Part shown: in pieces, positions 956 through 64,000 of the stretch
Numbering within the stretch: the stretch's first letter is position 1
Layout: each line of letters starts with the position of its first letter
Assembly (NCBI GenBank): GCA_030272155.1
Contig: CP126204.1
Span: 4,517,501-4,581,500 of the forward strand
Length of the DNA stretch: 64,000 bases
Origin: Tetradesmus obliquus
Taxonomy: Eukaryota > Chlorophyta > Chlorophyceae > Sphaeropleales > Scenedesmaceae
Direction: 5' to 3'
Made by a program: the position numbers and the translations under genes
The notes under the pieces: generated by a model
The model's database searches: none
What the model saw: only the letters and a program-made list of their open reading frames with translations
Told to the model about the DNA's origin: nothing

Positions 956-1360
956 TTGTTAGGATGCGATGCACCCGTATGTGTGCCAATTACGGTCATT
1001 GTCCGGGAATCTTTACTGCAGTATAGCTTTAATATTCATTGAAGCACTTCCCCACACTGCGCACGTGTATGCAACTATCTGACACAGCAGGGCGGGTGCT
1101 TGCAATCCCGTGCCACAGCTGCATGCACTGCTGTCGCATCACCCTGGCACGCAACACATAAAGCATAGCTCTGTGTAACATACTGCCTGGCAAAATACAA
1201 CGGTGCTGCATGCGCATATGCTTTGCAGGTTCATCGCATGGGAGCCAGTGCCGCAGTTCCGGGCGCTGCTGGCTCTCAACCTGGCCCGCAACACACAGCA
1301 CTCTGTTCTTCATACCGCCTGGCAAAATGCAACTGTGCTGCATGTGCATATGCTGTGCAG

Positions 1361-2487
1361 GGTGATTGCCTGGGAGCCAGTGCCGCAGTTCCGGGCGCTG
1401 CTGGCTCTCAACTTGGCACGCAATGGGCTGAGCCAGCTTGTGAGCGTGCGGCCGGCTGTTGTGGCGCACCCGCCCGGCATCAAGCAGGTGCGGCCCGGTG
1501 TGTTGTAAGGGGGAGGGGAGGGGTGTGGGAGTGGATGGCAGTGCAGGTGCAGTTTGCAGTGGCAGCCGGCTGTTGTGGCCCACCCGCCCGGCAGCAAGCA
1601 GGTGCGAGGATGGGAGGGGCGGGCAGGGGAGCCAGGGGGGTCGTGTTGCATGTATGTAGATGCACCCACCCACAGGGCTGCTACAAGTGCCCTGCAAGCA
1701 GCAACCCGTAGCTGCCAGCAACAACAACACACATCAGCCATCACCTGCTGCGGCTCCACCTTGTGAAATACTGGCTTGCTCACTGCATCAGCGGGTAGGC
1801 AGCTGTTGTGGCGCACCCGCCCGGCAGCAAGCAGGTGCGGCCATGTGCAGTGCAGAGGAGAAGCGAGGGAGGACAGGGCAGGGCAGGGGAGTCAAAGGGA
1901 TGCTGCTGCTACAGGTCTACTTGGCGCAGGCAAGGCAAGGTGTGCGTATCATCACATATGCTGGTGTTGCCAAGGGTCCTGCGCAGGCTGTGGTGGTAAC
2001 ACGTGGTGTTGCTGCTGAGGCTGCTGCTGCTGCTGCTGCTGCTGCAGGTGGTGGTGATACCCAACCGAGGCATCTGGGGCACTGCCGGCATCGGCGGCGC
2101 AAACGTGGACCTGAGCATACACGACAAGGCCAGCGGGCCGCCCCAGCAGGTGTGAAATTGGCTGCATAGGATGTCTTGGCGTTTTGCTGTCAGTCCTCAA
2201 AGGATTTGAGCATACACGACAAGGCCAGCGGGCCGCCACGGCAGGTGTGATACATGTGACTGCTTTAGAGGAAGTCTGTGTATTGTTGGTGGATACCAAT
2301 GCTGCAGTTGCTCAGGTATGTGCTTGCGTGTCTGTGTGCATACTTATGACATGCTCTTATGGTGAAGATGCGTTTGTCGAACAAGCAAGGAGAGCATGAT
2401 GGCTGCGCATGACTGAGCCAGCCGTCAAAACTTTGTTGGCATCAGTTCTGCTGCGTCCTTTGTGAGCCTGTGATGCGTGTGTGTAAC

Positions 2488-2522
<35 letters not shown>

Positions 2523-5500
2523 AGGTGGAGGTGGTGGCTGAGTCTCTGGATGAGATGCTGGCAGGGCAGCACGTGGACCTGCTCAAAGTGGTGAGCGGCG
2601 CAGGCCCCAAGACTGCAAAGGGAGGGGGCCATTGCTGTGTAGCCGCTGCTTGCTGAAAGAAAATATTGTGTGATGCTAACCGTGCCATCCACAGTACTGT
2701 GGCAGACTGGTCCTGCTAGTCCTGTGCATGCATGCAAATCCTGCAAACGCCGCATGATGCTGTTGTGTGTTGCGCTAGTCCTCTGTCAAGCGCTACGTTC
2801 CGTCTCTGGATGAGGTGCTGGCAGGGCAGCACGTGGACCTGCTCAAAGTGGTGAGAGAGGTGTCTTTGTGTCAGCTTGACTATGATTTCGTTGAATTTTG
2901 ATGCCCTACATAATCGTTTACTTCACAGTTGTTCAAAACTCAGTGATACTGGGCACAGGCGCGCAGTTGGCGGCTTAGCTGGCCTTAGCTGGCCGTAGCA
3001 CGGCTAGCTAACCCCTGCTAAGGCAGGCTAAACCTAGCAGGAGGGCCTGCATGCTGGTAGAGCTGAAGCTCAGTCCTGTAGCGGTTCCTGGCAAACACGT
3101 GCGACGGTGGCGTGACCGCTAAACCGCCGCGGCTGGCCCTGGTTTTGTGGGAATGCAATGTTACTAATACAAGTATGATGTACAACTGCTCAACATCCAG
3201 TGATAATGGAGTGCAAGGTGTGTTTTGCGCATAGCAGCGTCTCGGGCTCAATCCTGTGGCTGTGCCATGCAAACACATGTGACGGTGGCGTGACTCCTAA
3301 ACCGTTGCCGCTGGCCCTGGTTTTGTAGGAATGCAATGTTATTGATACAAGTATGATGAACAGCTGCTCAAAACTCAGTGACAATGGAGCGCAAAGTTTG
3401 TTTTAGGCGTGGGCAGCGTCTCAGGGTCAGTCCTGTGGCTGTGCCATGCAAACACATGTGACGGTGGCGTGACACCTAAACCGCTGCCTCTGGTTCTGGC
3501 TCTGTAGTAATTTTATTGATACACATATGATGTACTGCTGCTCAAAACAAAGTAATAGTGCAATAATTGATTTGGGCATGGGCAGCGTCTCAGGCTCAAT
3601 CCTGTGGCTGTGCCAGGCAAACACATGTGACGGTGGCGTGACCCCTAAACCGCTGCCGCTTGCCCTGGTATTGTGGGAGTGCAATGTTACTAACACAAGT
3701 ATGATGTACAGCTGCTCAGTGATAGTAGAGTGCACTGTTTGTTTTGGGCTTGGGCAGCATCTGAGGCTCAGTCCTGTGGCTGTGCCATGCAAACACATGT
3801 GACGGTGGCGTGACCCCTAAACCGCTGCCGCTAGCCCTGGTTTTGTAGGAAAACTATTGTAGTAATACAAGTATTATGTACGGTTGCTCAAACCCCAGTA
3901 ATTAAGGAGTGCAGAGTTTGTTTTGGGCATGGGCAGCGTCTCAGGCTCAGGCCTGTAGCGGTTGCAGGCAAGCACATGTGACAGTGGCGTGACCCCTAAA
4001 CCGCCGCGGCTGGCCCTGGTTTTGTGGGAATGCAATGTTACTAATACAAGTATGATGTACAACTGCTCAACATCCAGTGGTAATGGAGTGCAAGGTGTGT
4101 TTTGCGCATAGCAGCGTCTCGGGCTCAATCCTGTGGCTGTGCCATGCAAACACATGTGACGGTGGCGTGACCCCTAAACCGTTGCCGCTGGCCCTGGTTT
4201 CGTAAGAATGCAATGTTACTGATACAAGTATGATGAACAGCTGCTCAAAACTCAGTGACAATGGATGCAGAGTTTGTTTTAGGCGTGGGCAGCGTCTCAG
4301 GGTCAGGCCTGTAGCGGTTGCAGGCAAGCCCATGTGATAGCAGCGTCACCCCTAAACCGCTGCTTCCAGCCCTGACTTTGTACGAATGCAATGTTACTAA
4401 TGCAAGTATGAATCACAGCTGCTGAAAGCCCAGTAATAATGGAGTGCACGGTTTGTTTTGCGCATGGGCAGCGTCTCAGGCTCAGGCCTGTAGCGGTTGT
4501 TGGCAAGCCCATGTGATAGCGGCGTCACCCCTCAACCGCTGCTGCCGGCCCTGATTATGTAGGGATGCAATGTTACTAATGCAAGTATGAATGCAAGCTG
4601 CTGAAAGCCCAGTATTAATGGAGTGCACGGTTTGTTTTGGGCATGGGCAGCGTCTCAGGCTCAGGCCTGTAGCGGTTGTAGGCAAGCACATGTGACAATG
4701 GCGTCACCCCTAAACCGCTGCTGCCGGCCCTGATGTTGTAGGGATGGAATGTTACTACTGCAAGTATGAATCACAGCTGCTGAAAGCCCAGTAATGATGG
4801 AGTGCACGGTTTGTTTTGGGCATGGGCAGCGTCGCAGGCTCAGGCCTGTAGCGGTTGCAGGCAAGCACATGTTACAGCAGTGTCACCCCTAAACCGCTGC
4901 TTCCGGCCCTGATTTTGTAGGGATGCAATGTTACTAATGCAATTATGAATCACAGCTGCTGAAAGCCCAGTAATAATGGAGTGCACGGTTTGTTTTGCGC
5001 ATGGGCAGCGTCTCAGGCTCAGGCCTGTAGCGGTTGTTGGCAAGCACATGTGATAGCGGCGTCACCCCTCAACCGCTGCTGCCGGCCCTGATTTTGTAGG
5101 AATGCAATGTTACTAATGCAAGTATGAATGCAAGCTGCTGAAAGCCCAGTAATAATGGTGTGCGAAGGTCTGTTTTGGGCATGGGCAGCGTCTCAGGTTT
5201 GGTCCTGTAGCAGTTGCAGGCAAACAAATCCGACAGTGGTGTGACCCCTTAACCTCCGTTTCTGGCCCTGACATTGTAGGCAGTGTGACAATGTTGATAC
5301 AATTTTATTTCACAGCTGCCTCAAAACGCAGTGTTCATGCGATGATTTGCTCGTGCTGCTGCTGCTGGCACTGCTGCTGTCGCAGGATGTGGAGGGCTAC
5401 GAGCCGTCTGTGCTGGCTACTGCACAGGCGCTGCTGGCGGCCGGAGCAGTGGACAACGTTGTGCTGGAGTACTCGCCAGGCGTGTATGAGCGAAGCTCAC

Positions 5501-7863
5501 GGTGCGTGCTTCTTCTCCTGCTGCTGCCGCTGTTGATGTTATCTTGCTGCCATAGCTCAATGCGTTTTGTTGCAGCCCTCCTCTGGTGTGTATGAGTGCA
5601 GTTCACCCGCAACAGCAAAAACCTGCCGCGACAGAAGTTGCCGCTGACATCCTGCTGTTGCTGATCCTGCTGCTTGCTGTATATGCTGCATGTTGCTGCT
5701 TGTTTCCACTGCCGTCAGGTGGTCTGAGATGGACGTGCACCCGCGCATGCTGCTGGACTTGACCAAAGCAGGCTTCCGCCTGATGCACATGCCGGACACT
5801 TTCACTCGAGTCTGGTGGGACGGCAGGGCTGTTGCGGGCGCCATACCAAAACTGCGGGAGGTGACACCAACAAACCTGAAGTACGATTTGTGGGATGCAG
5901 CAATATACAGGTGTGGCACATAAAGGCAACCGGCTTGATTTGTCATTTGGCTTTTGTACAAGTTCTGTTACAATGACAGACACTTTGTTAGGAGGTGCTG
6001 CTTTCCTTCTGCAGAGTGTGTTGTGTTTAATGGGACGGCAGGGCTGTTGTTGCGGGCACCAATCCTAAGTTGCGGGAGGTGACGCCGACAAACTTGAAAT
6101 ACGATCTGTGGGATGCAGAAATGTACAGGTGAGGCAGATGGAACAACATGCTGTGTTCGTTGGTGTGAGGAGTAATTGCGTCTGGCTGTCACGCTCACAG
6201 CAGTTCCTTGAGAGGAAGTGCTGCCTCCCTTTTGTACAGCATGTTGTGTGGTGGGACGGCAGGGCTGTTGTGCGCGCCATCCCAAATGGGATCGGGAGGT
6301 GACGCAGACAAACTTGAAGTATGATCTGTGGGATGCTGCTGCGTACAGGTGTGGCACATAAAGGCAACCGGCTTGATCTGTCATTTAGTTTTCGAAAACA
6401 TTGTGTACAAGTGTTGTTACAATGGCAGACACCTTGTGAGGGGTGCTGCCTTCCTTCTGCAGCATGTGTTGTGTTTAGCCGGACGGCAGGGTTGCGGCGG
6501 CGCCATGCTCAAATTATGGCAGGTGACGCCGACAAATTTGAAGTATGCTCTATGGGATGCAGCTGCGTACAGGTGCGCTTGGCTTGTTTCTGATTACGTT
6601 TTGATCGCCTGTGAGATCCGCCTGAAGGACGACAGCGTTGGCGTGATGCTGTGGCACACGTTCTCTGCATAACAGCCGACCTGACAGCCTTGTAATAGTC
6701 TTTTTTGCATAACAGCCTTGTAACAGCTGCCATTTAACGGCAGTGGCAGCCGTAGGACAGGCTTCATTGCGGCAGGTGCCTTCGCACAGCTGAAGCCAAG
6801 TGACAGCTTGGAGCTTGAAGTACGATCTGTGGTTTGCAGCAACGCACAGCAGTGGTTTGCAAGGTGTTGTGCATGACTGCAGCCTCCATTGACCATTGCA
6901 GCATCTCCGGCGCTCCAAGTTCAATGTTGTTGCCAACTGCACAAAGTGTTGCCTGCTGTCGGAAGGTGATGCAACACAAATCCGCTCGTCTCAACATTTT
7001 GCCTGCCTGTCCATCGCTTGCTGCACTGCATGACAACACCAGCACGGGCGCCTTGGACCCCACTTCCAAGCCCTTCTGCCTTGCAATGGTGGCGCTGGGC
7101 CTCGACAACCAAGGCATTCCGGAGCGCCTGCAATCACTCATACCCTCTTTAACAAAGGCTATTGCCAAGCAGCATGCATAGATGCTAACAAGCCGCTGCC
7201 TCCTCCTTGCTGTGCACATAACACATTGGCCACCTCCTCAACCTGCCCCTGCCTATTCCTTCCCTTCTTGCCCTGGCATGCACAACAACACCGCAGCACG
7301 GGCGCCCTGGACCCCACTTCCAAGCCCTTCTGCCCTGCAATGGTGGCACTGGGCCTCGACAACCAAGGCATCCCGGAGCGCCTGCACCCCAAGTCCTTGC
7401 ACTCAGCGTTCGGCCACAACACCAACGTGTGGGCCACAAAGGACGCCAAGGTGAGCTGCAACATACCTGCTTGCAGCGTCGGCAGTGCACAGCTGTCCGC
7501 TGCTGTGAGTGGCTGCACCCCAGGTCTTTTCACTCATTCATTCATTCATTCACTGATCATCCGGCCACAACACTGATATGTGGGCCGCAAAGGACGCCAG
7601 GAAGCTTCCTTAAGGTGAGCTGCTGTGTACTGCTATGAGCGCCAGCACAGGATGTATGACCCCAAGTCCTTCCACTCAGCGTTCGGCCACAACACCAACG
7701 TGTGGGCCACTCGAGACGCCAAGGTGCGCTGCTGTTCTGCTGCTGCCTTCCCGCGTCAGCACTGCGCCCCTGTGTGAAGCCTGGACGGTGTGAGTCCCCG
7801 AGTAGGCACCAATGCCGAGGTGCAAACCCTCAAACATGCTGTTGCTGTTAGCACATACCCCTG

Positions 7864-15177: not shown

Positions 15178-18166
15178 GCAGCAGCAGCAGCAGCAGCAGC
15201 AGCAGCGGCGGCGGTGGCAGAGATGCAGGGTGTCATTGGTGATTAAGCCAGCATGTTCCGTCGCAGGGTGTAGGAAGCTGCACGGCAGCCAGTGGCAGGG
15301 TTGCGCTGCATTCAAGAGCTGCAGTACAGCAGTCTCAGACAGCCTGCGGTGAACTCAAAATGCATGAATGTCGTCAGCCCTTCGGCCCTTCAGCTCACGT
15401 GTCATGCAGCCTGCCGCGGCCCACCACGAGACCTAGTACACGCCTTCCATGTCGCTCGTGTACACCACCAAACACCAACCGTGTGCTCAGCGCAGTCGTC
15501 CGTGCCACATTCAGCTTTGCGCAACTAACGACACAACCTTGGACCGCCTCACTGATCTCTGAATTCCGTCAGCCCCACAGCTCACGTGTCATGAAGCCCG
15601 CCGCGCCCCACCACGAGACCTGGTACACGTCCTCCGTGTCACTCATCGACACCTCGTAGGGCGTGCGCCCGTCCAGGCTGCTGCCATGCTGCAGCTCCCA
15701 CGCCTCCAGCAGAGCAGCCGGGGCCATGCCGATCAGCCGGTCAAACATAACTAACACTTTCTGCATGTTATTTATGACGAGGCCTATCGGAGCCAGCACG
15801 TCTGTGGGAGTGAGGCCGGAGGCGATGAGTTCAGCTACTTCGGGCTCTTGTGTGGCGAGTACGTTGACTACCAGGGCGATTGCTAATCTCGAGCCTTTGA
15901 AGAGCCACACCGTGCCATCGCGGTACTTGGGGTTGACGGCGCGGAACAGGCGGTCGTAGCTGTTGGGGAAGCAGGAGTGCGGCAGCGGGGCGGCAGGGCA
16001 TGACGCAACGTTGTCAGGGGGCACAGTCAAGGCAGGTGTATAAAGTGATGTCGCGGTACTTGGGGTGGACGGCGCGGAACAGGCGCTCGTAGCTGCAGTG
16101 TGCAGTGAGGGTCAGCGGCACAGCAGCAGGGTGGCACAGCAGTGGGCATGGCATGACGCAGGTATGTGCTGTGTGCAGCGTGCAGCCTGCCCGCCATGTT
16201 GGCGAGCTTGACGGCGCGGAACAGGCAGTCGTAGCTGCAGGGAGGGCCAGCCACGCAGCAGCGTGGCGGCGGGGCACGACCACACAGTGTCGCCAACGCA
16301 ACCAGCTTGGGCAGCATGGCCGTGAAGGCCAGAGTAGCGCTTGCATGCCGCCTGCCATTCTGCGTGCCTGTGCTGGACAGGATGGACTCCCGTGGGCACT
16401 GCACAGTGGCCTCACATGCTTGCTGACACGTTGGACCACCCCCCCCCCCTGTGCTGTGCCGTGTTTGTCCCTGCAGGTGGTGGTGCTGGACAAGATGGAC
16501 TACGCCTGCCATGCCGCGTGCCTGTGGCTGAGGCGCCTGTCTGTATGACACGCACTGCTTGCCGGCAGATCCCCTGCATACCAAGTGCCACTATGGGGGC
16601 TGACGAGCAGTGCAAGTGACCTTTGGATGGCCTTTTGTTGTTTGCTGCATGGCCAGCAAATGGCCGCATGCTGCTGCTGTTGCTACCAGTTCGTTCACTC
16701 AAAGCTGTCACAACTGTTGCAAAATGCTCTGGCATGATGGCAGCACGGGACGTTGTGCTGCAGCGCTCAGCAAGGCTGCAAGCTGGCTGGCTCAAGGCGC
16801 TCACCTCTTATCTTCCACAAAAACCACACTGCTGCCGAATGGTGGGCCTGCAGCGACAGCAGCAGGCAACAGGCAGATGTGTGTAGGTTGGATGTTTAAA
16901 GCAGTGTGAGTGGTTGCTGCAGCTACAGAGTACTGTCGCATTGCCTGCTGCAATGCGCTACAGGTCCCAGCAGGCACAGAGCCTCCTGACAAATGTAAGA
17001 CTTGCATCATGCAAAGCAGCAGCCGGAGCATTCAGGACAGGCAGCAGTATCAAAAACAGCCGCAGGCAGATGTTAACCGTTTGTATCATATATAATGTAA
17101 TGTATAATCGCATGGCTCACCCATGCACTGGTAGCCGTCAGCACTCAGCCGCTGTCCCTGCTGGCAAGTGCAGCTGTACTGCCAAGGCGCTGCGCTGCTG
17201 TTGCCCCTGCAGGACTTGGCGCTGGGCCTGCAGATTGACACCTGGCCACAGCTGTAGCCTGCATGTCATAAAAAATTACAATGTGACAATGTGACATGAC
17301 AAATAACAAGGTGTGGTTTAATGGTTTTGTGAGGTCCTGCAGTGCACTTGCATGCAGTCCAGCCATCATGCTGAAGGAGACTAGACTAGTGACCTGAAGA
17401 TAGCCGCATCATGTAATACGGGAGGCGATAACGCTGCATGGTATGATATAACAGCAGAGCATGCTCGCTGACAGCTGTTGAGTTGCCAGGCTGGCTGCTG
17501 CTTGGTGCTGATGTTGCAGCACTGCGCTGTGAATGCTGTTTGGAGCGGCGATGCTTTCCACTTGCGAGTAAGTGCTGCAGGTAAACACTGCCCCCACAGC
17601 AGCACGATTCTCTAATCAGCACAACTCCACCCCTGCTGCTGCTGCTGCTGCTCCCATGCATGTAGTTTGCATGCCGTCTCACCTTGCTTCACCAGCGTCC
17701 CTTGGCACAGATCGTCCTGTTCCCTGGGCTGCCAGCCCCAAGCATTTACGCTGCCTATTGGGGCAGTCGGCCACTTGCGCGCGTATGCAGTCATCAGGTA
17801 CCCATCTGTTCTGGCGCCGACACAGAGGGCCTCCTTGTTGCATGCCTCTGTCAGCAGCTGCCACACATACTGGCTGGTGCCTGCTATGTTGGTGAAGGGC
17901 AGAGTGAATCCCAATGTCCTAGTGTTTGGCAGGAAGGTGTATCCTGCAGGCACTCTGTTGCCACATGTGCTGCCAGGTGCTGCTGCTGTTGCTGCTGCCC
18001 GTCTTTGCGCGGATGGGCTGGGTGGGTTAGGTACAGGCAGAGGCCAAGGTATAGTTTTGCTGTATTCTGTTTGCGAGTCTGTGGACTTGAAGGTTGCTAG
18101 CAGTACTAAAAGGGTTAACAGAAGAGCAGGTTTGCTGCCTCTCCCAGGCACTGCTGCTGGTTCTAG

Positions 18167-29777: not shown

Positions 29778-29823
<46 letters not shown>

Positions 29824-30008: not shown

Positions 30009-32012
30009 CTGTTACATTCAAGTGCACAGCATTGGTAAAGGTGAGAGCAACCAGCTGGCTAGCGAGGTTTGCGCAGAACTGCTGCTGTCTGGCCAGCCCA
30101 CAGAAGGCGGTATGAGGGCAGCAAGCCTAGGGGCAGACACTCCAGGCAAGATGCACACCTGTCGAACAAGTGACGCAAATGCAGCATTGCCTAACCAACT
30201 CAACAAGTGCTCAACCATAATGAAACCACAGCCTGCTGAACCTTCAGAAGTTGCTGCCGCTGCTGCCAGCAGCACGCCACGCACCTGGCTGGTGGGCTGG
30301 TAGTAAGGGTAGGCCGGCTGCTGAGCTGGCACCTGATCCAGCAATGACACAGCAGGCTGCTGCTGCTGCTGCTGCTGCTGGTAGTAGCCGGCACCGTCGC
30401 CGTACCCATACCCAGCAGCAGCCGGCTGCTGCTGCTGCGGCGGCTGCTGCTGCTGATATGCAGCATAGCCATTCACTCCAGCTGCTGCTGCAGGGTCTAC
30501 TACTGCTGCGGGAGGCTGTGCGCTGTAGCTGCTGCTGCTGCCGCCGCCACCGTACCCATACATGCCAGCACTGCCGCCATCTGCTGCATATGCGCTGCTG
30601 CTGCTGCCGCCGCCATAGCCTGCAGCGACAGGGCTGCTGCTATAGCCGTACGCATTGCTGCTGCTGCCACCGCCATACGCATTGGGTGCATTGCTGCTGC
30701 CGCCGTAGCCGTAGCTGCCGGTGTTGCTGCTATAGCCGCCGCCAGGCGCACCTGCTGCAGCATATGTACTGCTGCTCGGCGCTGCTGCTGCTGCTGCTGG
30801 GCCGCTGCTTGGATAGCCGCCGTAGTTCAAACTCAGATCGTCCATTCCAGCAGCAAGGCCAGCAGCGCCAGAGATCTGGCTGTAGCTGCTGATCCCGCCA
30901 TAATGTCCGCCGCTACTGCCGCCACTATACGGATCGTACATGGCTGCCGCCGGCGGCGCAGACGAGCGATAGCCGCCGCTGCCGCTGCTGCCGCCGCCGC
31001 CAGCATAGTTCACCACGCTCACCATTGCACTGCCGTTCATGCCGCTGCCGCCGCCGCCGCGCCTGCTGCTGCTGCTGCCGGCGCCCTGCGACAAGCTGCG
31101 CTCCACTTGCTTGGCCCATTCCGCCGCGCTGCTGCTGCTGCTGCTGCCGCCGTGGCGGTCCTTGCTGCTGCTGCTGCGGTGGCTGTGGCGCTCGCGGCTG
31201 CTGCTGCTGCTGCCGCCTGGCTCGCTGCTGTCATCCACACCAGCCAGCTGCTTCACAATCTTGGCGATGGCTCCCTCCAGGGCGCTGATCCACTCCACCA
31301 TCTCCGTCTCTGCAGCAGCAGCATGCAGCAGCAGCAGCAAAGTATAAGTACCAATCCATTATGGAACATGTTCACTGTACAGTTAAGCAGCAGCTGGTGG
31401 TGCTACGTAGCACCATCACCAGCTGCTACGCCATGTATTGCCCTATTGCGGCTTGACATGTGTTATATGTGCGCCCTGCACGCTCCCAACACCACACAAA
31501 CAAGGAAACCACCATAGGTGTTGCGCCTGATTCGCACACACTGCCGCCACCAACCCCGCCAAACTCCACCTCCCAGCGCAACAGCCATAGGCTTTGCAAT
31601 GCGCACCTGACTTGCACACGTAGCACACGCTACCACCGCTGGCCGTCTTGAGCTGCACGCTGTTGGCCTTGCCGGTCACGCTGCTGCTGAGCTGCAACCA
31701 CCTGTTGACCCACACTACTGTCAAGCAGGCATGCCAGGCACTGTTTTACACTCAGCACACCATGTAGGCACACACTTTCCACCAGGCACATCAACACCGC
31801 CACCAACAACAACATCAAAAGGTTCAAAACCCCTCGGGCACCCACCTGACTCGCACACGTAGCACACGCTGCCGCCGCTGGCCGTCTTGAGCTGCACACT
31901 GTTGGCCTTGCCGGTCACTGCCCGGCCATCCCGCACGTCCTGCACCTTGCTCAGGTCTATCACGCCACGCGGCTTGACCGACTCTGCAGCAGCCGCAGCA
32001 GCCACAGCAGCC

Positions 32013-39706: not shown

Positions 39707-42700
39707 ATGGTTGTGCTGCCAAACGAAGCAGCTGCTACACCCGCAGAGGGCATGGCGGACACAGCGCAGGCGGCCATCTTCCTGCAGCACCTACAAAGCA
39801 GCATGTCCGGCTGCGCATGCCCACTGGGAAATTCGGTTGCCGTTGCTGCACCTGCAGCAGCCATGGATGCGGCAGAGCATGTGAAGGGGCAGGACGCAGA
39901 CAGGGGCCACGCGGCTGGGGCTCAGATGCAAGCGACAGATCTGGAGTGTGTGACGCGCGAGCTACAGGTCTGCTGCTGCTGCAGGTTTTGTGTGCCTCAG
40001 GACACGTTCAGCATTGCTGCAGTTGCGGCTGTGCAGCACGCACGTGTGCCTGTCTGCTGCAGCTGTTTGCCAGCTTCATTCCGTGTGCAGTTGCAATACT
40101 CAGTGCTGGAGAGCATGCACATGTACCAGTATCCTTACTTTGCAGGAAACGCCTCGCTTGACTGTGGGTGTCGACATTGACTGTTGCTGCACCTCCTTTA
40201 TTCTGCATGCCAAGCAGCAGCAGCTGATCAGCGACAAGCGCAAGCAGTACGAGCAGCAGCTGGCTCACAAGAAGCCGGAGGAGCACCAACTGCTGGCGGC
40301 ACTGGCGCAGCCCATGGGCTTCCACAAGGGCAAGCCACTGGCAGCGCTGGTGGTGATCAGGGCCTGCCTGCAGTGGGGGGCCTTCAAGGCGGACCGCTGC
40401 AGCCTGTTCGGAGACATCACCCAGGTGTGGCGTTACTTTGACCAATGTTGACTGAGACGTGCTGCGCTGCATCTTGCGGATGACTGTGTCAAGCAAGCTG
40501 GGCTCTGCCTGTTTTGGGGTGAATAAAGCAGCAGAACTGTTGAGCCGCTGCCTCTGTGACATGTCTGCTGCAACTCACTTATTCTTATGACGCCAGCATG
40601 AGCGGTGCTCCCCGCAGATGCTTTCCACGTGTTCCTCAGCATGTTGTGTACTGCCGATGTGGTGTGCCCCACCTGCGCAGGTCATCAAAGGCCAGATTGA
40701 GCGGCAGCCAAGCGACAACGCGTGCCTCGCCTACTGGCTGTTCAACAAGGTAACGCTGCGGCACCTGCTGCAGCGCACCATCAAGCCAATGAGCACCGCA
40801 ATGAGCATGGCTCAGGCACTAGGCTTCGGCACCATGGGTGAGCTTGTGCCAGGCAGCCCATGGCTGGTGCGCGTGGCCTGCAGTGATGTGTTGTTTCACT
40901 TCTGCAACGATGTCGATGCTGTGTGTTGACGTGCCTGCATGTCACGTCTGCTGATGAGCACTTTTAATGTAGCTTGCGGCGGAGCTCTCGCTCCACCCGT
41001 GGCTGCTGCTGATGCCAGTCCTTAATGCACGTGCACTCAATCGCATGCATACAACTTCATGCTTTACTGCTTCGCCCATCCGTCTTGTATTCAGACCCAG
41101 CGTGCATCGATGGCGGCTTTGTGAGTGACTGCTACCCGGTGGAGGCCAAGTACCCCGCGCTGATATTCAAGCAGCAGCAGGACGAGTTTGTGCAGACCAT
41201 CTATGCCGTGATGCGCGAAAACGTGAAGAAGAGCATCGAGCCCATGCTGGTGAGCCGCTGCCTGCATGCCCGCCAACCTTGCCTACAATGCAATACCTGC
41301 AGCGTGGCCACTTCCCGCTGTTGTCACTTGATGCAAGTGAACTGCGCCAACGACGCATGTCCTGCTTTCCTGTGCATGCAGAGGTGCTGCATCGGCGACC
41401 CCACCCCCCGCAGCAGCGGCAGCGGCAGCGGAGCGGCTCCTACAGCCGCCATGCAGAGCAAGGCCTGGGGCGACCTGCTGGCTGTGTTTGACGAGCTGCT
41501 GGTGACGCTGCGCAAGAACCACGTGCCCAAGCCGCTGGCGCAGGCGCTGTTCAAGCAGCTGTTCAACTTTGTCAACGTGACGCTCTCCAACCTGCTGCTG
41601 CTGTGCCGGGAGTAAGTGGTGCCTGGGATGCTGGTTTATGTTCAGGCGTTGTGCTTGTGCAAACTTGCATGCATGTGCTGGAACAGGTGGATAGGCAGTC
41701 CTTGCTGCTGGCAAAGGGCGGCTGTTTGATGGGCCGCCATGTCAGCTGTGTGCTGCATCACATCACCAGCGGATGACGTTGTGTCTTGTTTGTCATACCA
41801 AAAAAAGTGTGTGCGGATGACACTGATGACATGCACTGCCTACTTCTGCCCCTGCAGGTGCTGCTCCTTCAGCAACGGCGAGCGCGTGAAGGCGGGCCGC
41901 TGGCAGGTGGAGGCCTGGATCATGGAGCACGGCGCCGAGTGGGGCCTTATTGCTCAACATCCTACCCCTGTTCTCATCCTGCTGCGTCACTCTGCTGCCT
42001 TGATGCCGTCCGTGCAGGTGCTGCTCCTTCAGCAACGGCGAGTACGTGAAGACGGGCCTGTCGCGAATGGAGTCCTGACTCATGGAGGCCGGCGCCGAGT
42101 GGGGCCTTGCTGCTCAACATCCTACCCCTGTTCTCATCCTGCTGCGTCACTCTGCTGCTTTGATGCCGTCCGTGCAGGTGCTGCTCCTTCAGCAACGGCG
42201 AATACGTGAAGACGGGCCTGTCGCGAGTGGAGTCCTGGATCATGGAGGCCGGCTCGGACTGGGTGGGCGAGTGCTGGGAGGAGCTCAAGTGCATCCGGCA
42301 GGCAGTCGGCTTCCTGGTGATCGGCAACAAGCCAAGGAAGAGCCTGGAGTACATCACAAAGGACATATGCCCTGTGCTGAGCATCCAGCAGCTGTACCGC
42401 ATCAGCACCATGTTCTGGGACAACAAGTACAACACTAAGACTGTGTCCAGCGAGGTGAGGAGAACGCTGTTGGCATGGGGCGTTGTTCGCCGCATTTCGG
42501 TCGTTGTGTGGGTCTTGAAGCAGCTGATGGAGGAGCAGAGCAGCAGCAACCCCTACAGTCACAACTTCCTGCTGGAGAGCAGCAGCTGCTTCAAGCCCTT
42601 GGTGGTCAACAACATTCTGGCACAGATGGACGGCAGGGTGCGCTTGAGTGCCGCGTATTGGTCACGTATAACATGTGGTTGTCATGGTGTTGTCATGTTG

Positions 42701-44506: not shown

Positions 44507-46236
44507 TCACGCAGCCTTCCGCTGCCTCTTCGGCCGCCCGCCAGCTGCCACCTGCTGCTGCTGCTGCTGCTGCCCCGCCAGCTTTGCCTTGCGCTGCTCC
44601 AGTGCCGCCACGCGCTCCGCCTTGCCTTCAATTGCCCGGTTGATCCTTGCATACAGCTTTCGATTCTTGCGCGTCATCATGATGTCAGCCATTGCTGCCT
44701 CCTCATCCTCCTCAGCAGCCTTGCCAGTAGCACCTGCTGCTGCTGCTTTCCGCTTCTTGCCTGCTGCTGCTGCTGCCGCATCCTCCTCCTCGTCTGAGCC
44801 CTGCTCTGAACCCTCCTCCTCCTCTGAACCCTGATCAGCATCGCCTGCTTCTACACCCTGCGCGGCCCGCAGCTCCTTAGCAAGCTCCTTTTGGTACACC
44901 TTCTCTGCTACTGCATCATCCTCGCCAGGTGCTGCTGCTGCTGCTGCCGCCGCTGCGTCTGCTGCCGAGCCGTCCTGCAGGAACGCTGCCTCAGTGGCCA
45001 GGCCTGCTGCTGCCCGGCGTGCTGTGCGTGCAGCCTCCTGCAGGGGCAGCAGGTGAAATTGACAGGCAGCAGCAGCAGCATGTGAGTGAGCACATAACAG
45101 ACTCAAGGGTGGCTCGCGCGCTGGAAATGACGACAGCAACAGCAGGCAAGATGATGGCAGACACAAGATGCTGCTGCATAAAGAAGGGCTGCTGCCTACT
45201 CGGCGGGCCAACAGCGCAAGCCCCGCATGCACAGCAGCAGCAGCAGCAGTTTACTTGCAGCTGCTTGATGGTTCGTGCAAACTCGGGCGTGTAACCCTCT
45301 GCCTCGTTGTCCACAAAGGGCGACAGGTGCAGCCCAACTCTTACATTCAAAACCCCAGGCTAAAACACAAAATGTCGCGATACTACAACCGCAGCCCCAG
45401 CTGCTGTGCCAAGCAAGCTCTGCAGAAGACAGCACAGCTGCCCCACACGCAGTACTGACAAGCCTTGCAGCGCACCTGCAGCTGCTTGATGGTGCGCGCA
45501 ACTCCGGGGTGTAACCCTCAGCCTCATTGTCCACAAAGGGCGACAGGTGCCATGCACACCATCAAAGCCTTAGGCTGTAACAACAAAGACCAGGCAGTGA
45601 CAACACCAACACGCACCTGCAGCTGCTTGATGGTGCGTGCAAACTCGGGCGTGTAGCCTTCAGCCTCATTGTCCACAAAGGGCGACAGGTGCGGCGGCGG
45701 CACCTTGCCTGGCGCGTACAGCTCAGCCGGCAGCAGCACGCGGTGGTTGATGCTGTCAAAGAGCCACTGCGGCTGCACGTAGGCGCGGCTCAGGAACCTG
45801 AACAACGTTTGCAGCGCAGACACACGCAGCAGCAGCAGCGCTTTGCTGAGTGTGGCTTGCAGGTGGCCAGCTGCTGCATGTTGGGTGCTGATGTTAGAAT
45901 TGCTGTTAAATGTTTGCAGTTGTAACAAAGCAACATGTTACATGACACATATAACATGTTACATGACACATGTAACATGTTATAGCTTATATGCGCCCGG
46001 GTGTGGGCCTGTCCACGATCTGGTGCATGTCAACCTTCTGCAGCGGAGAGCCTCCCAGGCTGCAGTGTCACCAAATGTAACAACGTAACATACGAGTGCC
46101 ATATATAACATGCTATGTAACTCACTTGTGACCCTGTGTAGGCCTGTCCACGATCTGGTGCGTGATGGCCTCGTCAGCCTCCTGCAGGGGGGAGCCGGGG
46201 CCCTCCCATGCTGCTGTGCCGCCAAACGCCCTGCAG

Positions 46237-46999: not shown

Positions 47000-49009
47000 T
47001 CTTCACTGCCTGCCGCATCCTCTTCACTCTCTTCTGCTGAGCTGCCCTCCTCATCTTCCTCCTCCTCATCCTCATCCTCTGCTGCATCTGCTTCAGAATC
47101 AGCTTCTGATTCGCTGTCATCGCCACCGCCAGAATCTATCTCTGGCAGCTCCTCCGACTCATCCTCTGCTGCTGCTGCTGCTGTATCACCCTGCTGCTGC
47201 TGCTGTTGCAGCTCCTGAAGCTTCTTGCCCAGCGTGCCCAGCCGCTGCACCACATCCGGCAGCGCTGCTGCTGCTGCTGTGCCGTCCTGCTGCTGCTGCT
47301 GCTCGCCCTGCTGCTGCTGCTCATCTGCAGCCAGGCCTGCAATGTCCTTCATGATGCCTGCCAGGCCTGCTGCTGCTGCCTCCAGGCTCTTGTCCGCAAC
47401 AGGAGGGTACCTGCAGCAGCAGCAGCAGTAAAGGGCGGCACAGCAGCAGCAACGGCGGCAAAACACGTCAGCACAGGCACATAGCTTGGTTACTGCATGT
47501 TGCTGCCAGTCCTGCCTCTGCCACGACAGGTTGACCACCCAACTGTCACAAGCACGGCACAGCAGCAGCAGCAGCAGGATGCTGACGTTTCCAAAGACAG
47601 CCATTGCAGTCTCCAATAGCAATGATGCTTTAAACCTCAACCCCAAGCCCCTTGCAATCCCTAAACCGCACACCTGGGCCCCAGGTTGTGATAGAGCCTG
47701 AACATCACAAACTGCACCAGCATCGCGTAGAACTCCAAAAAGGTGAGCATCAGCAAGCTCAAAACCCTGCACCCTGTTACAAAACACCCCTAAACCACGC
47801 ACCTGAGCCCCAGGTTGTGGTAGAGCTTGAACATCACAAACTGCACCAGTGTGGCGTAGAACTCAAGGAAGGTGAGCATCACAGTGAAGTCCACGTCAGC
47901 GGGCAGCACCTGCGCCAGCTGGTGGGGCACCAGCCACGTCACGCTGCAGCCCGCCACCTCCGCCTGCAGGGTTCAAAAAATGATCATTTGTAAACGGTTT
48001 AGGTGTGGATAGATCAAACGATTTGGCCAGCTGGTGAGGGACCAGCCGTGTGACACTGCAGCCCGCCACCTCCGCCTGCAGGGTTTCAAAGGCAGTAACG
48101 TGCGGAGAAGTCGGGTCTGCTGAGATCATACGGTTTAGCCAGCTGGTGGGGCACCAGCCAAGTGATACTGCAGCCCGCTACCTCCGCGTGCAGGGTTGAA
48201 GGCGTCACATGGGTCAACAGGTGCAGTTGTTGCATAACAGCAACATGTGGCTGGCGGGACACCAGCAGCGTGACGGCGCGCGGCAACTTGCAGGACTGCC
48301 GCAAGCTGCCGTGCAAGTTCAATACCCAAATGTGACATTAGCGTATGGAGCTTGCATGTTCAGGCACTGCACAACAGCAGCCGCTGCTAACGCCGCACCT
48401 GGTAGTAGAAGCCCTTCACGCTGACTGGGTGGAAGTTTTGTGGTGTAGGCTGTCTATCACATAAGAACCCCCAGCCGTCGCACCCACCTGGTAGTAGAAG
48501 CCCTTGACGCTCACAAACACGCGCCGCAGGCTGCTGGTGCGCGCCACATACGCGTTCCACTCCAGCACCAGACGCCGGCACCTGCAGCAGCAGCAGCAGC
48601 AGCAGCAGCAGCACGATGCGGTCACGAAAAGCCAGTCGCAGGTGGTGCTGGCGTGCAATATGCTGCAGCCATACATACAAAGGAACAGTGCATGGTTGAA
48701 AGCCGGGTGCACAGCTACTCAGAATAATCAACTGATATGCTGCGGCTGTTTGCTGGCAGAATCTAATAATGTTCCCTTCCCTCACCCCCTGCATCATGCT
48801 GCATGCAACCACAGCCACTGCAGCCTGAACCACAGCCACAGCTACATCGTGTAGTATCCACCACCCCAGCCAGCCTCACTTGTCCACGGTTGATGCGCTG
48901 ATGCCCAGCCGGCCCTCAGCAGGCAGTGTGGCGAACAGGTGCAGCAGCGTGAGCGGGTCATCCAGGTCACGCAGCGCATCAATGAAGGAAGGGTAGCTGC
49001 GGCAGAAAT

Positions 49010-49073: not shown

Positions 49074-50065
49074 TACACTTGAACGAGAGCAAGTCACAAA
49101 TGCACAGCTTGTGATGGGCGATTAGGAAACAGGGGCACTGCAGCAGCAGTGAAGGAGGTAAAACCGCAACGCAAATCAGTGTTATGGGGTAGTAAATACG
49201 ATATGACAAAAATAACACATGTAACAGCAAAATAACAACTCACCGCTCCCTGACCAGGTGGTCCAGCTTGTAGCCTGGCTTGGCCCTCATCAGGCGCCTC
49301 GCCAGGCTGAAGTCAGCCTTGGCGCGCACCTTGAATTATTATGGTACAATAACACAAAGTGACACATATGTAACATATGTAACAACAACTCACCGCTCCC
49401 TGACAAGGTGATTCAGGTTGTAGCCGGGCTTTGCCCTCAGCAGGCGCCTCGCCAGGCTGAAGTTGGCCTTGGCCCGCACATCCATGCATTACCGTTCAAA
49501 AACATAAAGTAACACAAATCAACACATGCTATAACCAGCTCACCGCTCTCTGACCAGGTGGTCCAGCTTGTAGCCCGGCTTGGCCCGCATGAGCCGCCTC
49601 GCCAGGCTGAAGTTGGCCTTGGCCCGTGCCTTGCTCACACGCCGCTCATGCACCTTGACAGCCCTGCGGCAAGCAGCAGGCGGCAGCAGCACACAAGGTT
49701 TGTAAGTAAGGGTCCAGCACTGCTGCTGTGCTGCTGCTGTTGCCTAGGATACTACTGTTGTAGATGCTGCTGCTGCTGCTGCTGCTACTGCCATGCCAGC
49801 GCTTGTTGCCAGTTGGCCCCACTGCAGGCTGCAGCTCCGCGTGCACAGCATGCTGCACAGCAGCCGAGCCTGCGCAGATGCACCGGGCTCTGCGACGGCA
49901 GAGCTCGGCTGCGAAAGCCAGCCTGGAAGGTGCTTGCAGCACTGCACTGCTGCACCCACAGGGCGGTGTAACCTGCAGCACTGCTGCTGCTGCTGCTGCT
50001 GCTGCAACACTGCAACACGCCCTGTCAACCCGCCAGCCAGCTGGGCAGATGCCCCGCTAGCCAAG

Positions 50066-50218: not shown

Positions 50219-51376
50219 AACATTGCTGCGCACCCTGTTACCCAGCTGGCAAGCCAGGCCCTTGCTGCTGCCTTTGCCACATGCCCTTTTGCTGCTGCTC
50301 CTGCTGCTGCTGCTGCCGCCTGTCCTTGCTACTGCCGTCTGCCCTTACTGCCACCTGGCCAGTTGCTGCTGCTGGCTCACCTGAAGTTCTGTACGAGCGG
50401 CTCGTGTGCCAGCCAGTTGATGTCCTTCACGTGGTAGTAGGTCTTGTTGGCTCCTTTCACCTTGCGCTTGGGCTCGCGCGGGTGCACGCCTTTGAGGATG
50501 CATAGCCGCCTGACAGCATGGGCAGCAGCAGCAGCAGCAGCAGCAGCATGATGAAGCACAGGCAAATGAGTATCAAGCTCTTTCTGCAGTTGGCGCGCCC
50601 TTCAGGATGCACAGCCGCCTGGCAGCAGCAGCAGCAGCAGCACACAAAGCACCAAAAACAGGGGTCAGTCTCATGTGCTGTCTGCAGACAGCATGGCCTT
50701 CAAGAAGCACAGCCGCCTGGGGCGGCAGCAGGCGCGGCGGCAGCAGCAGCAAGCAAAGCAGCAGAGAGCACAAACCGCCAGGATAAAAAGTGAAAATGAC
50801 GAAAAGGGCTCTGTTACTAAGGTGCTGGAAAGATAAAGAAAGCTCCACATCTAGCGTGCTGCAACACAGCATTGTTGCAGACAACAAGCACAAGGTGGCA
50901 ATCTAAATGCTCCACATTCTCAGGAGAGAATGTGGAGCATTCAGACTGCCAACTTGTGCTTGTTGTCTGCAACATGTTGTGGCTGCAGCTGCTATCACTG
51001 TGAATCCACAGTCGCATACAACTGAACTGTACCAGCTGCAGCACTGCTTGCGGTGCTGGGCTGAAAGCTGAAAGTGGCAGCCTGCTGCCGTCACTGCTGC
51101 TGCTGCTGCCACTGCAGCCTGGCTCCCCTAGCTGTCTCGGCTGCGGCTGCAGGTATCGTCAACACTGCTACAAAACCAATCTCATTGCTTACCTGAACTC
51201 AGACAGGCGCAGCTGCAGCTTCTTGATTGCCTGATTGCGGGTGAGGTACTGGGCAGCGTTGCCCGCCTTCCCCTGCGAAATGACGATGCATGAGCGACTG
51301 CTGGCCTACACAGTAGATTATGAATCACATAAAGATATATGTTTAAACTGCATACCCTCTTCTGCTTCTTCCCCAT
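44507..51376 (-). CDS. PES1: Pescadillo homolog (PeBoW complex, ribosome biogenesis)
   Basis: Twelve exons: 51376-51356, 51272-51193, 50509-50381, 49663-49544, 48996-48880, 48581-48488, 47963-47803, 47410-46938, 46743-46488, 46230-46126, 45797-45617 and 45037-44507 (TGA). They encode 755 residues and every phase closes. Landmarks are [19 protein letters not shown] at the start, [53 protein letters not shown], and a BRCT domain (about 440-545: [45 protein letters not shown]). It ends in a basic tail (RPKRQRKAA). Pescadillo works in the nucleolus with BOP1 and WDR12 in 27S pre-rRNA processing. It exceeds the human protein (588) through an acidic Gln/Ala insert in exon 8 and Ala runs. Partial exon copies adjoin exons 3, 4, 6, 7, 9, 10 and 11. 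Intron 2 carries a hairpin (50874-50973). Confidence 0.95.
46632..46743 (-). repeat. In-frame duplicated 3' splice site of Pescadillo exon 9
   Basis: CTG-run plus CAG|GTGTC occurs at 46743 and again at 46632, 111 nt apart. Both acceptors have the same phase, so either choice keeps the frame. The longer form adds 37 residues that repeat [18 protein letters not shown]. Confidence 0.85.
49240..49663 (-). repeat. Three copies of Pescadillo exon 4, 150 bp apart
   Basis: Donor-side copies end at 49544, about 49394 and about 49244. Each repeats the codons for [12 protein letters not shown] and a CG|GTGAG donor. The copy at 49544-49663 joins in phase to both neighbours and has the full exon; the other two lack its 5' part. 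Confidence 0.92.
50874..50973 (-). ncRNA. Intronic hairpin, candidate small-RNA precursor
   Basis: Two 48-nt arms (50874-50921 and 50926-50973) are reverse complements with three mismatches and a 4-nt loop (AGGA on the + strand). Read in the gene's sense direction (-), two of the three mismatches become G-U wobble pairs. It lies in Pescadillo intron 2, next to duplicated exon 3 starts. Long near-perfect intronic hairpins are the usual form of green-algal miRNA precursors. A short foldback transposon is the main alternative. Confidence 0.6.
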
Positions 51377-62355: not shown

Positions 62356-62387
<32 letters not shown>

Positions 62388-62849
62388 GCTGCAGGTCCTC
62401 TGGCATGCCTGACCTCAAGATGTTGGTCATGAGTGACACGGTGATAGAGGACGCCTCAATTGAGGCTGCCGGCGCGTACATCAAGGCTGTCAGCAAGCGC
62501 AGGAGCGACATCATCTTCACGACCTACGCCTCCTCTCTGGCAACTCCTGAGACGCTAGCAGACTCCTTCACTGCTACAGCAGCAAAACCAGCAGGCTTTG
62601 CGTCATCTGCAGCGCCAGGGCCATTTGTCATATGGACAAGCTCCGTCGGAAAGAGCGACAAGGAAGCGAGTGCATACGGCAGGCCCCGTACCAGCATTGC
62701 AGTGACGCCGCCTCTGGCTGGGGCACAGGCCGGCCTGTGGGCATCACCACCGCCAGGCAGCATTGGACGTACAAGCAGCGGCAGCATCAGCGGGGCACTG
62801 GTGGACTGTCCCAAGGGCTTCGAGACGTGTGCCAATGCGATGGTGAGTT

Positions 62850-62884
<35 letters not shown>

Positions 62885-64000
62885 TTGTGAGCTGTGCTCC
62901 CGTGGCTGCTGAACAGCAGCAATGTATAATTTTGATATGCGACAACATGCCATCTATTGGTGTGGTTTGCAATCAGAGCAAGCCGTCGGTGAGGTGGGGT
63001 GCCGCAGCGCACCACAGTAAGACGTCTCTGGAAATAACATGATAGATTTGGCGTTCAGGGGTGTGCGTTGTGTTCTACGGTGCTCACTCTCCTCTTCTGG
63101 TCTCAGACCTGTGTTCAACCTGTTGTGGCTCATACCATCAAAGATTGTGCCAGGACCCACATGTAACTATCCTCTCTCAATGTGTGTTATGCTGCACTGG
63201 CGCTAGCTGAGGTTGCATGCCTGCTGCTGCTGCTGCTGCTGGTTTGCCTTCAGGGCAAGAGCTGCCTCATCCAGCGCGGCGAAACGCCGTTTGCAGACAA
63301 GGTAGTCAACTGCGTGAAGGGTGGAGGCATAGCGGCCATCATCTACGCACGGTGAGCGCCTGGCAACAGCATGTCTTGGCTTTGTTCCTGGTTTTATATA
63401 CAGTCGCTGCGTTGAGGTCTGCTGCCCTTTTACAAATTCGCCAAACGCTATGGGGAACCCACAGCCCTCCCGCAACGATGACGATGTCATGCGACACCTG
63501 CTCGCGTAAGCTTGCACCCACTATTGCTTGCCCGGTTTCCAGTACGGCTGCTGTACAGCAGGGATGACCAGCGGCAAACAGCGCTCCATAAGGGTGCACA
63601 CACAAGCTTGACCATGTACTGCTTTGACAAATTGCATTGCTGCTGTACTGCAGGGATGACCAGCCACCATGAATGCTTCCAGTGCCACGCACACAAGATT
63701 GACCATCTACTGCTTTTTGAGGACAGCTTGCATTGCTGCTGCTGTACCGCAGCGATGACCAGCCGCCATGACTGCTTCTGATGCTGCACACACCAGCGCC
63801 GCACGCACGAGCCTGAACATGTACTGCCTTCGCTTCTTGCTGCTTTTACATTGCGGCTGTACCGCAGCGATGACCAGCCACCATGCAAGCGCTGGTTCGG
63901 CGATGTGATAGGCAATGGTGTGCCAGGGCCCCTCCCAAATGACGCTTGGCCCATCATGCTGACAGCAAGCCTGGCCCAAGGCAAGGCACTGCTGGCAGCC
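60291..64000 (+). CDS. Secreted subtilase-like protein with PA domain (3' end beyond window)
   Basis: Exons are 60291-60596, 60801-60894, 61289-61463, 62062-62181, 62395-62842, 63254-63351 and 63868->64000, all phases closed. The signal peptide is obvious (LLCLMLAALATCSSAAHA). The order of blocks follows subtilisins: a strand where the catalytic Asp should sit (VLFCMVGLAISSTNKDM), then NAMVALSAIGAQDNSIG and LLGVVPNAAAYVYNL where HGTHVAGT...NNSIGVLGVAP is expected. Both positions are replaced (Asp to Gly, His to Asn), so the protein looks catalytically inactive. A protease-associated domain follows (GKSCLIQRGETPFADKV, GGGIAAIIYARDDQPP). The Ser region lies outside the window. Exon-edge copies occur at 62215-62265 and 63545-63800. 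Confidence 0.75.
60661..60772. repeat. (ACTC)n microsatellite
   Basis: Two pure (CACT)n blocks separated by CAACAACACACCTGC in the first intron of the subtilase-like gene. Confidence 0.95.
62291..62331 (+). repeat. Introner-like element, 3'-end fragment
   Basis: GATGGTGCCAGGACCCACAT followed by CTATCCTCTCTC matches the end blocks of the elements at 11019-11190 and 62989-63182. It lies in intron 4 of the subtilase-like gene. Confidence 0.65.
62989..63182 (+). repeat. Introner-like element inside a subtilase-gene intron
   Basis: Begins GTGAGGTGGGGTGCC, contains TTGGCGTTCAGGGGTGTGCG and ends with GTGCCAGGACCCACATGTAA. The same blocks in the same order make up the complete intron 11019-11190 of the F-box/LRR gene. 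This copy is about 20 bp longer and no longer ends at a splice acceptor. Confidence 0.65.
63545..63890 (+). repeat. Four copies of an exon start, about 100-120 bp apart
   Basis: CTGTAC-GCAG|CGATGACCAGCC or a close variant recurs near 63547, 63643, 63743 and 63860. The last copy, with exon start 63868, closes the reading phase from 63351. The earlier three carry acceptor-like CAG but lead into other sequence. Confidence 0.9.

Follow-up and report, generated by a model that had tools for sequence, protein, structure and literature searches.

Internal gene duplication, reportedly set out by Gao and Lynch in 2009 (a paper cited in PMC3443670), is said to be local, often to take in parts of exons together with their splice sites, and to occur in many eukaryotes. 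The stress there lies on the creation of introns, whereas the copies of exon edges found in Tetradesmus obliquus mostly stay in an existing intron, are dense and show a preference for exon edges.

In the potato RdRp gene, as related in the portion of the paper that deals with it, a tandem duplication spanned an intron-exon boundary and a cryptic donor made a new intron (PMC4974935). The T. obliquus unit likewise extends across the junction and includes the splice site (the potato unit, according to the same portion, inherits branch site, tract and AG), but where potato offers one gene, 52 exons in 264 kb are affected in T. obliquus, and the copy seems to stay intronic. That portion also presents the AGGT model of Rogers and the ATP2A1 case (Hellsten 2011), in which tandem duplication supplies spare splice sites (PMC4974935). 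Local direct duplication with spare splice sites is displayed by T. obliquus as well; unlike these cases, it gives no sign of new introns, the copies do not abut the far exon (2 of 58 lie within 10 bp of it, at a median distance of 308 bp), and AGGT, which in the model serves as both splice sites, is present in 13 of 61 duplicated pieces. Introners, whose genome-wide effect on introns has, in the available portion of the source, been reported chiefly in rapidly evolving lineages, green algae among them (PMC9860276), differ in that each T. obliquus copy derives from its own exon; the two spacers searched, in a search that skips simple repeats, matched their own arrays only, with no shared element and no like intron sequence at many unrelated sites. 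A literature search over titles and the openings of abstracts returned no description of the exon-edge copy pattern, and PMC12571836 and PMC7590803 contain no word beginning with 'intron'.

Exon-edge copies in the window and elsewhere in the sample

The exon-edge copies are real. They were analysed in 264 kb of T. obliquus DNA, comprising the window (the whole 64-kb stretch under study) and 20 other 10-kb loci, with a gene finder self-trained on this sample, splice signals being fixed and simple repeats masked; all gene models are ab initio, from DNA alone. Repeats in the window were detected by TRF and self BLAST, and the seed exon at 42178, in the tail of a myosin XI gene whose joined peptide gives a DIL Pfam match of 1.6e-25, was placed by hand (the gene finder's own start for this exon is 42193). 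Offsets, flanks, indels and codon differences were counted in the set of 61 best exon-copy pairs.

Across the 264 kb, a nearby copy accompanies 51 of the 186 donor and 32 of the 197 acceptor edges, and the local repeat pairs are 229 direct versus 5 inverted, direct local duplicates of gene parts that include exon, as in internal gene duplication. The excess over chance that had been claimed is borne out by this imbalance and by the repeat families joining exon edge and intron, which number 39 versus 17.1 ± 3.8 under rotated labels (0 of 400 rotations reach 39); intron/intron and unassigned families are depleted relative to the rotated labels. The claim had been made to depend on copies not being equally frequent away from exon edges, and they are not, the copy probability in 20-bp windows being 0.28 at the donor end of exons versus 0.09-0.11 for positions 60-110 bp into the exon and 0.07-0.09 across the intron's first 50 bp. 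Non-exonic edge copies number 88, at the 52 exons given above; 20 of the 45 predicted genes with at least four exons carry one, as do 6 of the 10 window gene models (pescadillo, PES1, is split over two of these models), which makes the original prediction's 'almost every gene' too strong. The pattern is not specific to the window, since 84 of 123 repeat families lie outside it, in the other 200 kb, and its occurrence in unrelated genes and at many degrees of divergence is upheld.

All eight places that the original prediction listed in the window contain direct repeats. At six (41858/42018/42178, 49244/49394/49544, 45260/45490/45617, 31620/31846, 32595/32695/32795 and 15959/16080/16230) the gene models place an exon edge with its splice site in the repeat (Table 1). 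The four repeats at 63547-63860 each carry an acceptor-like CAG, the last of them taken by eye as the real exon start, and at 22870/23001/23133 the reading fails, the repeat unit being the last part of a terminal exon, stop codon included, plus the DNA that follows, rather than a splice site.

Table 1. Copied exons and their edge copies in the window, by gene or region.
Feature	Position	Strand	Remarks
Myosin XI tail (DIL domain) exon, first ~85 bp copied upstream	42178..42454	+	seed by hand
Acceptor-edge copy 1 of exon 42178, with CAG	41858..41945	+	41858-41938 called exon by gene finder
Acceptor-edge copy 2 of exon 42178, with CAG	42018..42105	+	
PES1 exon, donor end copied twice downstream	49540..49663	-	
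Donor-edge copy of PES1 exon 49540-49663	49385..49485	-	part called exon; TRF period 150, self BLAST; its peptide occurs once in annotated protein P0001
Second donor-edge copy of PES1 exon 49540-49663	49232..49333	-	part called exon
PES1 exon with two downstream donor-edge copies	45617..45797	-	
Donor-edge copy of PES1 exon 45617-45797	45474..45550	-	one frameshift indel; 5 synonymous, 0 nonsynonymous codon differences
Donor-edge copy of PES1 exon 45617-45797	45253..45330	-	5 synonymous, 1 nonsynonymous codon difference; 45255-45359 called exon by gene finder
Donor-edge copy of PES1 exon 47803-47963	47659..47752	-	
Two acceptor-edge copies of PES1 exon 47803-47963	48026..48200	-	period 112
Donor-edge copy of PES1 exon 48488-48581	48396..48425	-	
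PES1 exon; two short (~20 bp) acceptor-edge copies in preceding intron	50381..50509	-	by eye, unscored
Donor-edge copy of exon 31846-31983	31604..31679	-	also called exon
Two acceptor-edge copies of exon 32445-32595	32668..32812	-	period 106
Acceptor-edge copy of exon 15911-15959	16051..16095	-	shorter one near 16208
Donor-edge copy of exon 15586-15760	15379..15466	-	
Array of terminal exon 23133-23304 end with stop codon	22871..23207	-	period 132, no splice site
Two donor-edge copies of exon 1229-1497	1562..1842	+	1562-1606, 1802-1842
Donor-edge copy of exon 2048-2149	2207..2250	+	
Donor-edge copy of exon 2525-2590	2802..2855	+	53/54 bases identical; homology ends at GTGAG
Acceptor-edge copy of exon 7297-7450	7002..7132	+	
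Donor-edge copy of exon 7297-7450	7659..7732	+	part called exon
Four acceptor-like edge repeats, CAG then GATGACCAGC or CGATGACCAGC	63547..63885	+	exon assignment by eye

Side, spacing and intron length

The side on which a copy lies follows the edge from which it derives: among 164 pairs, donor-edge copies are found 75 times downstream and 10 times upstream of the exon, acceptor-edge copies 48 times upstream and 5 times downstream, and the rule persists (48:6 for donor, 35:3 for acceptor) in the 105 pairs that remain when the 59 copies overlapping predicted exons are set aside. Duplication of whole exons followed by decay would put both edges on both sides and is contradicted by this rule. 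Copying from spliced RNA was also rejected, with copies found for 0 of 147 spliced-junction probes; for unspliced sequence the count is 32 of 294.

The splice site is usually retained, GT in 29 of 34 donor copies and AG in 26 of 28 acceptor copies, as aligned to the last exon base. A reading of the copies as recursive-splicing sites was discarded, exons that start with GT not being commoner where acceptor copies are present (7 of 21 exons versus 48 of 190, p 0.44). Copies lie at a median distance of 90 bp from their own exon; the offsets in the 61 best pairs have a median of 149 bp and a 5th-95th percentile range of 95-376 bp, in place of the 26-180 bp previously given. Copy-bearing introns exceed the others by about 200 bp (median 468 bp, n = 27, versus 257 bp without copies, n = 124; with a 1500-bp limit, 26 versus 123 introns, Mann-Whitney p 0.0002), which is what lengthening of an existing intron would produce.

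Probable junction-spanning duplication and its alternatives

The pattern is probably the product of local duplications that span a splice junction, are tolerated with one complete exon left, and lengthen existing introns. Short local direct duplications with a period of about 80-400 bp would be frequent in the genome; those that straddle a junction would leave an intact exon whose splice site still works, and would be tolerated because that exon survives, a surplus exon edge and the spare splice site it carries ending up inside the intron. Duplications within exons would mostly be purged, selection presumably acting as the filter. The intron would gain one unit, the spare copy being spliced out with it and decaying mostly neutrally, and exchange between copies may expand them into arrays. 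In annotated T. obliquus proteins the copies are apparently spliced out: six PES1 peptides with intronic DNA copies each appear a single time in P0001 (one pair was judged by eye and one is 71% alike), and the copies are absent from P0001 and from four of the five GCL proteins compared; P0125 lacks the copy, and P0124 reads one copy as coding.

In simple simulations, which use one unit-length distribution, shuffled introns and splice signals open to substitution and which set limits to the effect without measuring it, uniform neutral tandem duplication gives a ratio of exon-derived to neutral families of 0.48, versus 56:24 = 2.33 observed, underpredicting the exon-derived share 4.9-fold; the ratio becomes 0.99 or 1.94 (a 2.4- or 1.2-fold underprediction) when the decay rate of exon-derived copies is set to 0.4 or 0.2 times that of introns, and 3.52 with a fivefold junction bias and the rate of 0.4. 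An earlier simulation, with one run each and not at equilibrium, pointed in the same direction. The simulated ratio of homologous length to offset (three runs each) is 0.75-0.94 for exon-edge and 0.63-0.86 for intron/intron pairs, at every setting above the observed 0.43 and 0.37, and a homologous span of at least 0.9 of the offset is seen in 11 of the 61 best pairs. Neutral decay with detection modelled predicts intron-side homology at z > 3 in 57 of 61 pairs and at z > 8 in 47 (observed, 30 and 16), and a third-position ratio of 1.63 for pairwise differences (observed, 2.46; bootstrap 1.96-3.19); with equal rates and no detection step it leaves z > 3 in 52-59 of 61, which is also too slow. 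The size of the exon-edge excess, and the ending of recognisable homology near the junction in about 4 in 10 pairs, go beyond what tandem duplication alone accounts for, slow decay, homogenisation or junction-anchored copying being candidates for this residue.

A more far-reaching claim, that a process anchored at splice junctions re-copies or homogenises exon edges in the adjacent intron and drives the growth of Tetradesmus introns, is possible but doubtful. As a source of the copies themselves, a repair or replication process that copies 30-100 bp of exon edge and inserts it 100-300 bp away, the spacer not being duplicated, appears unlikely. The copied piece would end at the splice site or slightly beyond it, and in agreement with this homology stops within 10 bp of the junction in 25 of the 61 best pairs, flank homology is undetected in 31, and 98%-identity copies such as those of the exons at 2525 in the window and at 701 in locus L012 stop 5 and 0 bp past it; the length/offset ratio of 0.43 and an exon-edge excess above most simulations also favour such a process. 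However, intron-side homology (z > 3) is present in the other 30 pairs, versus 21 of 244 mismatched controls, extends for at least 80 bp in 10 pairs, and is kept in 10 of the 14 most similar copies (identity at least 0.95). Also counting against it is that we know of no process preferring splice junctions in DNA.

The array in the C11 myosin paralogue bears on both this process and gene conversion. Two of its copies have 0 and 1 differences in 46 bp, but their flanks are only weakly alike, which counts against the favoured junction-spanning reading; four of six flank comparisons still give z of 3.5-5.7, contrary to copying that ends at the junction. Near-identical exon pieces beside strongly diverged flanks would be expected if conversion with the exon kept the exonic parts of old junction-spanning duplications alike as their intron parts drifted, a reading also compatible with the lower apparent copy rate of about 0.4. 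It is nevertheless rather improbable, as such renewal should give a third-position ratio near the neutral 1.63 rather than 2.46, and pieces of 40-60 bp are short for conversion. Paralogous myosin genes have their arrays at different introns.

Pairwise differences made coding selection on the copies look likely: the 38 of 61 pairs free of frameshifts and stops have a third-position ratio of 3.54 (2.66-4.70; 81 synonymous, 48 nonsynonymous codons), the L017 5544 copies change at 0, 1 and 8 sites by codon position, one T. obliquus gene model runs through the intron in frame into a copy, and 59 of the 164 copies overlap predicted exons. That the copies serve as functional alternative exon ends is nonetheless very improbable. 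The remaining 23 pairs have a ratio of 1.88 (1.33-2.69), 33 indels cause frameshifts versus 4 in frame, and the copies are absent from the PES1 and most GCL proteins, as described above. In 22 families with at least two non-exonic copies, polarised changes on the copy branches number 49:45:61 by codon position (exon branches, 5:2:20), a third-position share near neutral (0.39, p 0.07), with 64 synonymous and 89 nonsynonymous; the inclusion of copies called exonic makes the changes uneven (88:73:131, p 3e-5). The copies mostly look neutral. A few families, L017 5544 among them, do look constrained as coding sequence; the single hit to part of the L017 gene in a protein search is not labelled T. 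obliquus.

Intron creation from an AGGT-containing exon segment, put forward in the original prediction, meets with no greater credence: direct duplicates with splice sites, and AGGT in the 13 pieces, agree with it, but the scarcity of copies flush with the far exon and introns that are longer, not new-looking, do not. Assembly stutter or a mobile intron element would have in its favour the letter-perfect copies in 3 of 61 best pairs and in the L020 array, but is hardly credible, stutter because the other 58 pairs differ by at least one base, spacers often differ and an exact match to one copy occurs in a protein of a second T. obliquus assembly, which may come from the same strain, and a mobile element as spacer on account of the spacer matches reported above.

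Probable intron growth, and annotation, in T. obliquus

To our knowledge, the lengthening of introns has been less studied than their origin. Duplications across splice junctions are present here at many degrees of divergence in one genome, beside exons that keep most ancestral letters, which makes it possible to date and polarise the events and to check them in strains. They also carry a warning for annotation, as copies with intact splice sites are easily called exons, both by the gene finder used here and in one T. obliquus gene model. Mean intron length, in the portion of the source that reports it, is 462 bp in T. obliquus versus 230-302 bp in four other algae (PMC5966456), and exon-edge duplication may help explain why the introns of T. 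obliquus are longer than those of other green algae.

Placement of repeats at exon edges

Exon edges were told apart from the remaining sequence with a gene finder. Its training set was the window (C14:4517501-4581500) together with 20 sample loci, each 10 kb long; every contig contributed one locus at 1 Mb, and three further loci were taken at 3 Mb. The assembly has 17 contigs, 104.66 Mb and a GC fraction of 0.57 (the published T. obliquus genome is given as 108 Mb with 57% GC; PMC5966456). The gene finder returned 434 exons in 264 kb, with donors mainly G/GTGAG or GTGCG and acceptors GCAG/G. These models are backed by the known families recovered among them: pescadillo (the window-encoded protein is 97% identical to Tetradesmus obliquus Pescadillo), myosin DIL domain, glutamate-cysteine ligase and elongation-factor-type GTPase. 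The predicted proteins carry poly-Ala, poly-Gln and poly-Ser tracts, and CAG/CTG trinucleotide runs are very dense throughout the window.

Self-comparison of the window gave 122 direct and 0 inverted local pairs within 3 kb. When exons scoring >8 were probed with 30 bp from each edge, counting copies outside the own exon but within 1.5 kb (other predicted exons included), 51/186 donor edges and 32/197 acceptor edges in the 264 kb had a copy. Donor ends of exons had a copy probability of 0.28 and acceptor ends one of up to 0.18. Values were 0.09-0.11 in deeper exon sequence and 0.07-0.09 over the initial 50 bp of the intron, climbing back to 0.15 at 110 bp into the intron, the position where copies sit.

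The original prediction that such copies exceed chance is borne out by 400 rotations of the labels, with one representative for each of 123 families, 84 of them beyond the window: exon-edge/intron families numbered 39 versus 17.1 under rotated labels, intron/intron families 15 versus 30.9, unassigned families 9 versus 20.0 and exon-interior/intron families 17 versus 15.7.

Coordinates of repeats and related features in the window and the sample loci (prefix L)
Location	Feature	Detail
1-931	Satellite	48-bp units, ~19.5 copies
3068-5254	Array of 179-bp units, ~12 in all	Long gap after exon 2525-2590
28547-29929	50-170 bp piece, nine related direct copies	One in a predicted exon; CTG runs between
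39863-43470	Myosin tail gene	
50858-50989	Inverted repeat in pescadillo intron	87% match to own reverse complement
L007 3276-3422	First part of intron plus donor-edge copy	
L018 6390-9979		Presumably hAT transposase-like
L019 588-9753	One long reading frame in tandem, ~3 copies in predicted protein	Presumably transposase-like

Anatomy and fate of the copies

Among 164 exon-copy pairs, donor-edge copies lay downstream in 75 cases and upstream in 10, acceptor-edge copies upstream in 48 and downstream in 5; the remainder touched both edges (16) or neither (10). Exclusion of the 59 pairs whose copy overlapped a predicted exon left 105, including 88 edge copies on the expected side at 52 exons, from which the best per edge gave 61 pairs with a median exonic piece of 58 bp, a median offset from exon to copy of 149 bp and a median ratio of homologous span to offset of 0.44 (at least 0.9 in 11/61). 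Arrays have the architecture X(TX)n, as in the glutamate-cysteine ligase gene of L007, with five additional exon ends, and the GTPase gene of L020, with two additional exon starts and identical spacers. Splice dinucleotides are retained in 55/62 copies.

Frameshift indels outnumber in-frame indels by 33 to 4 in the 61 pairs. In 22 families with at least two non-exonic copies, the split of changes over the three codon positions is 49:45:61 on copy branches and 5:2:20 for changes that set the exon apart from every copy, a pattern that near-neutral copies next to a constrained exon would show. Exceptions exist, such as the L017 5544 family (0:1:8); with copies called exonic included, copy-branch changes are 88:73:131 (39 families).

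Six tested peptides each occur once in the annotated T. obliquus pescadillo (P0001), and the glutamate-cysteine ligase proteins P0121, P0122, P0125 and P0129 are without the copies. P0124, from another T. obliquus assembly, has 49 additional residues encoded letter for letter by the tabulated L007 segment; the copy is therefore not peculiar to one assembly, and a copy can end up annotated as coding.

Possible persistence or junction bias

Neutral decay of whole duplicated units, with detection modelled, predicts intron-side homology in 57/61 pairs and a ratio of third-position differences to the others of 1.63, versus 30/61 and 2.46 observed. Decay of exon-derived copies at 0.4 of the intron rate predicts 36/61 and a ratio of 2.63, with 28 flanks at z >8 versus 16 observed. 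Forward simulations that combine uniform tandem duplication with selection put the ratio of exon-derived to neutral families at 0.48. Slower decay of exon-derived copies raises it, to 0.99 at 0.4 of the intron rate and to 1.94 at 0.2, and adding a fivefold junction bias to rate 0.4 gives 3.52; the observed ratio is 2.33 (56:24). The observed exon-derived class comprises 39 exon-edge and 17 exon-only families, versus 14-25 and 25-36 in each unbiased run at rate 0.4, a split that depends on splice signals, which the simulation leaves unprotected. No simulation setting reproduced the short span relative to offset.

Because simulations of the simple model miss the data, either exon-derived copies persist unusually well or duplication is biased towards junctions. 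Unusual persistence could arise if exon-derived copies were less mutable than the repeat-rich introns of this genome, underwent conversion with the exon, or were under weak selection.

A myosin paralogue lies on contig C11. Its exon homologous to window exon 42521 has three acceptor-edge copies (one weaker) where the matching window intron measures 66 bp, and the two window copies preceding exon 42178 are absent from it. With 20/115 fourfold sites differing between the paralogues, these gains or losses are fairly recent. Two copies in the C11 array, showing 0 and 1 differences over 46 bp, lie between weakly alike flanks; for some cases at least, this speaks for conversion or junction-anchored copying. 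Differences between the paralogues are about equal across codon positions (45, 57 and 57 in 338 codons), so constraint may be weak on one of the two genes, perhaps the one in the window.

Possible consequences for intron length

Introns are known to arise by tandem duplication (PMC3443670), and creation of introns by a duplicated exon segment had been proposed for these copies as well. This is not upheld: the median distance from copy to own exon is 90 bp and to the far exon 308 bp, only 2/58 copies come within 10 bp of the latter (3/61, in introns running off the locus, were left out), and introns with copies are longer than those without (medians 468 bp, n=27, versus 257 bp, n=124). A potato case shares duplication across the boundary, but there, as described, the outcome was a new intron (PMC4974935). 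The literature searched yielded no account of introns being lengthened by dense exon-edge copies.

Mean intron length is reported as 462 bp in T. obliquus, and as 230, 302, 284 and 270 bp in four other algae (PMC5966456). Junction duplications may contribute to the long T. obliquus introns; detectable copies explain just part of that length, since introns up to 1500 bp in the present sample average 452 bp with copies, 286 bp without and 315 bp overall.
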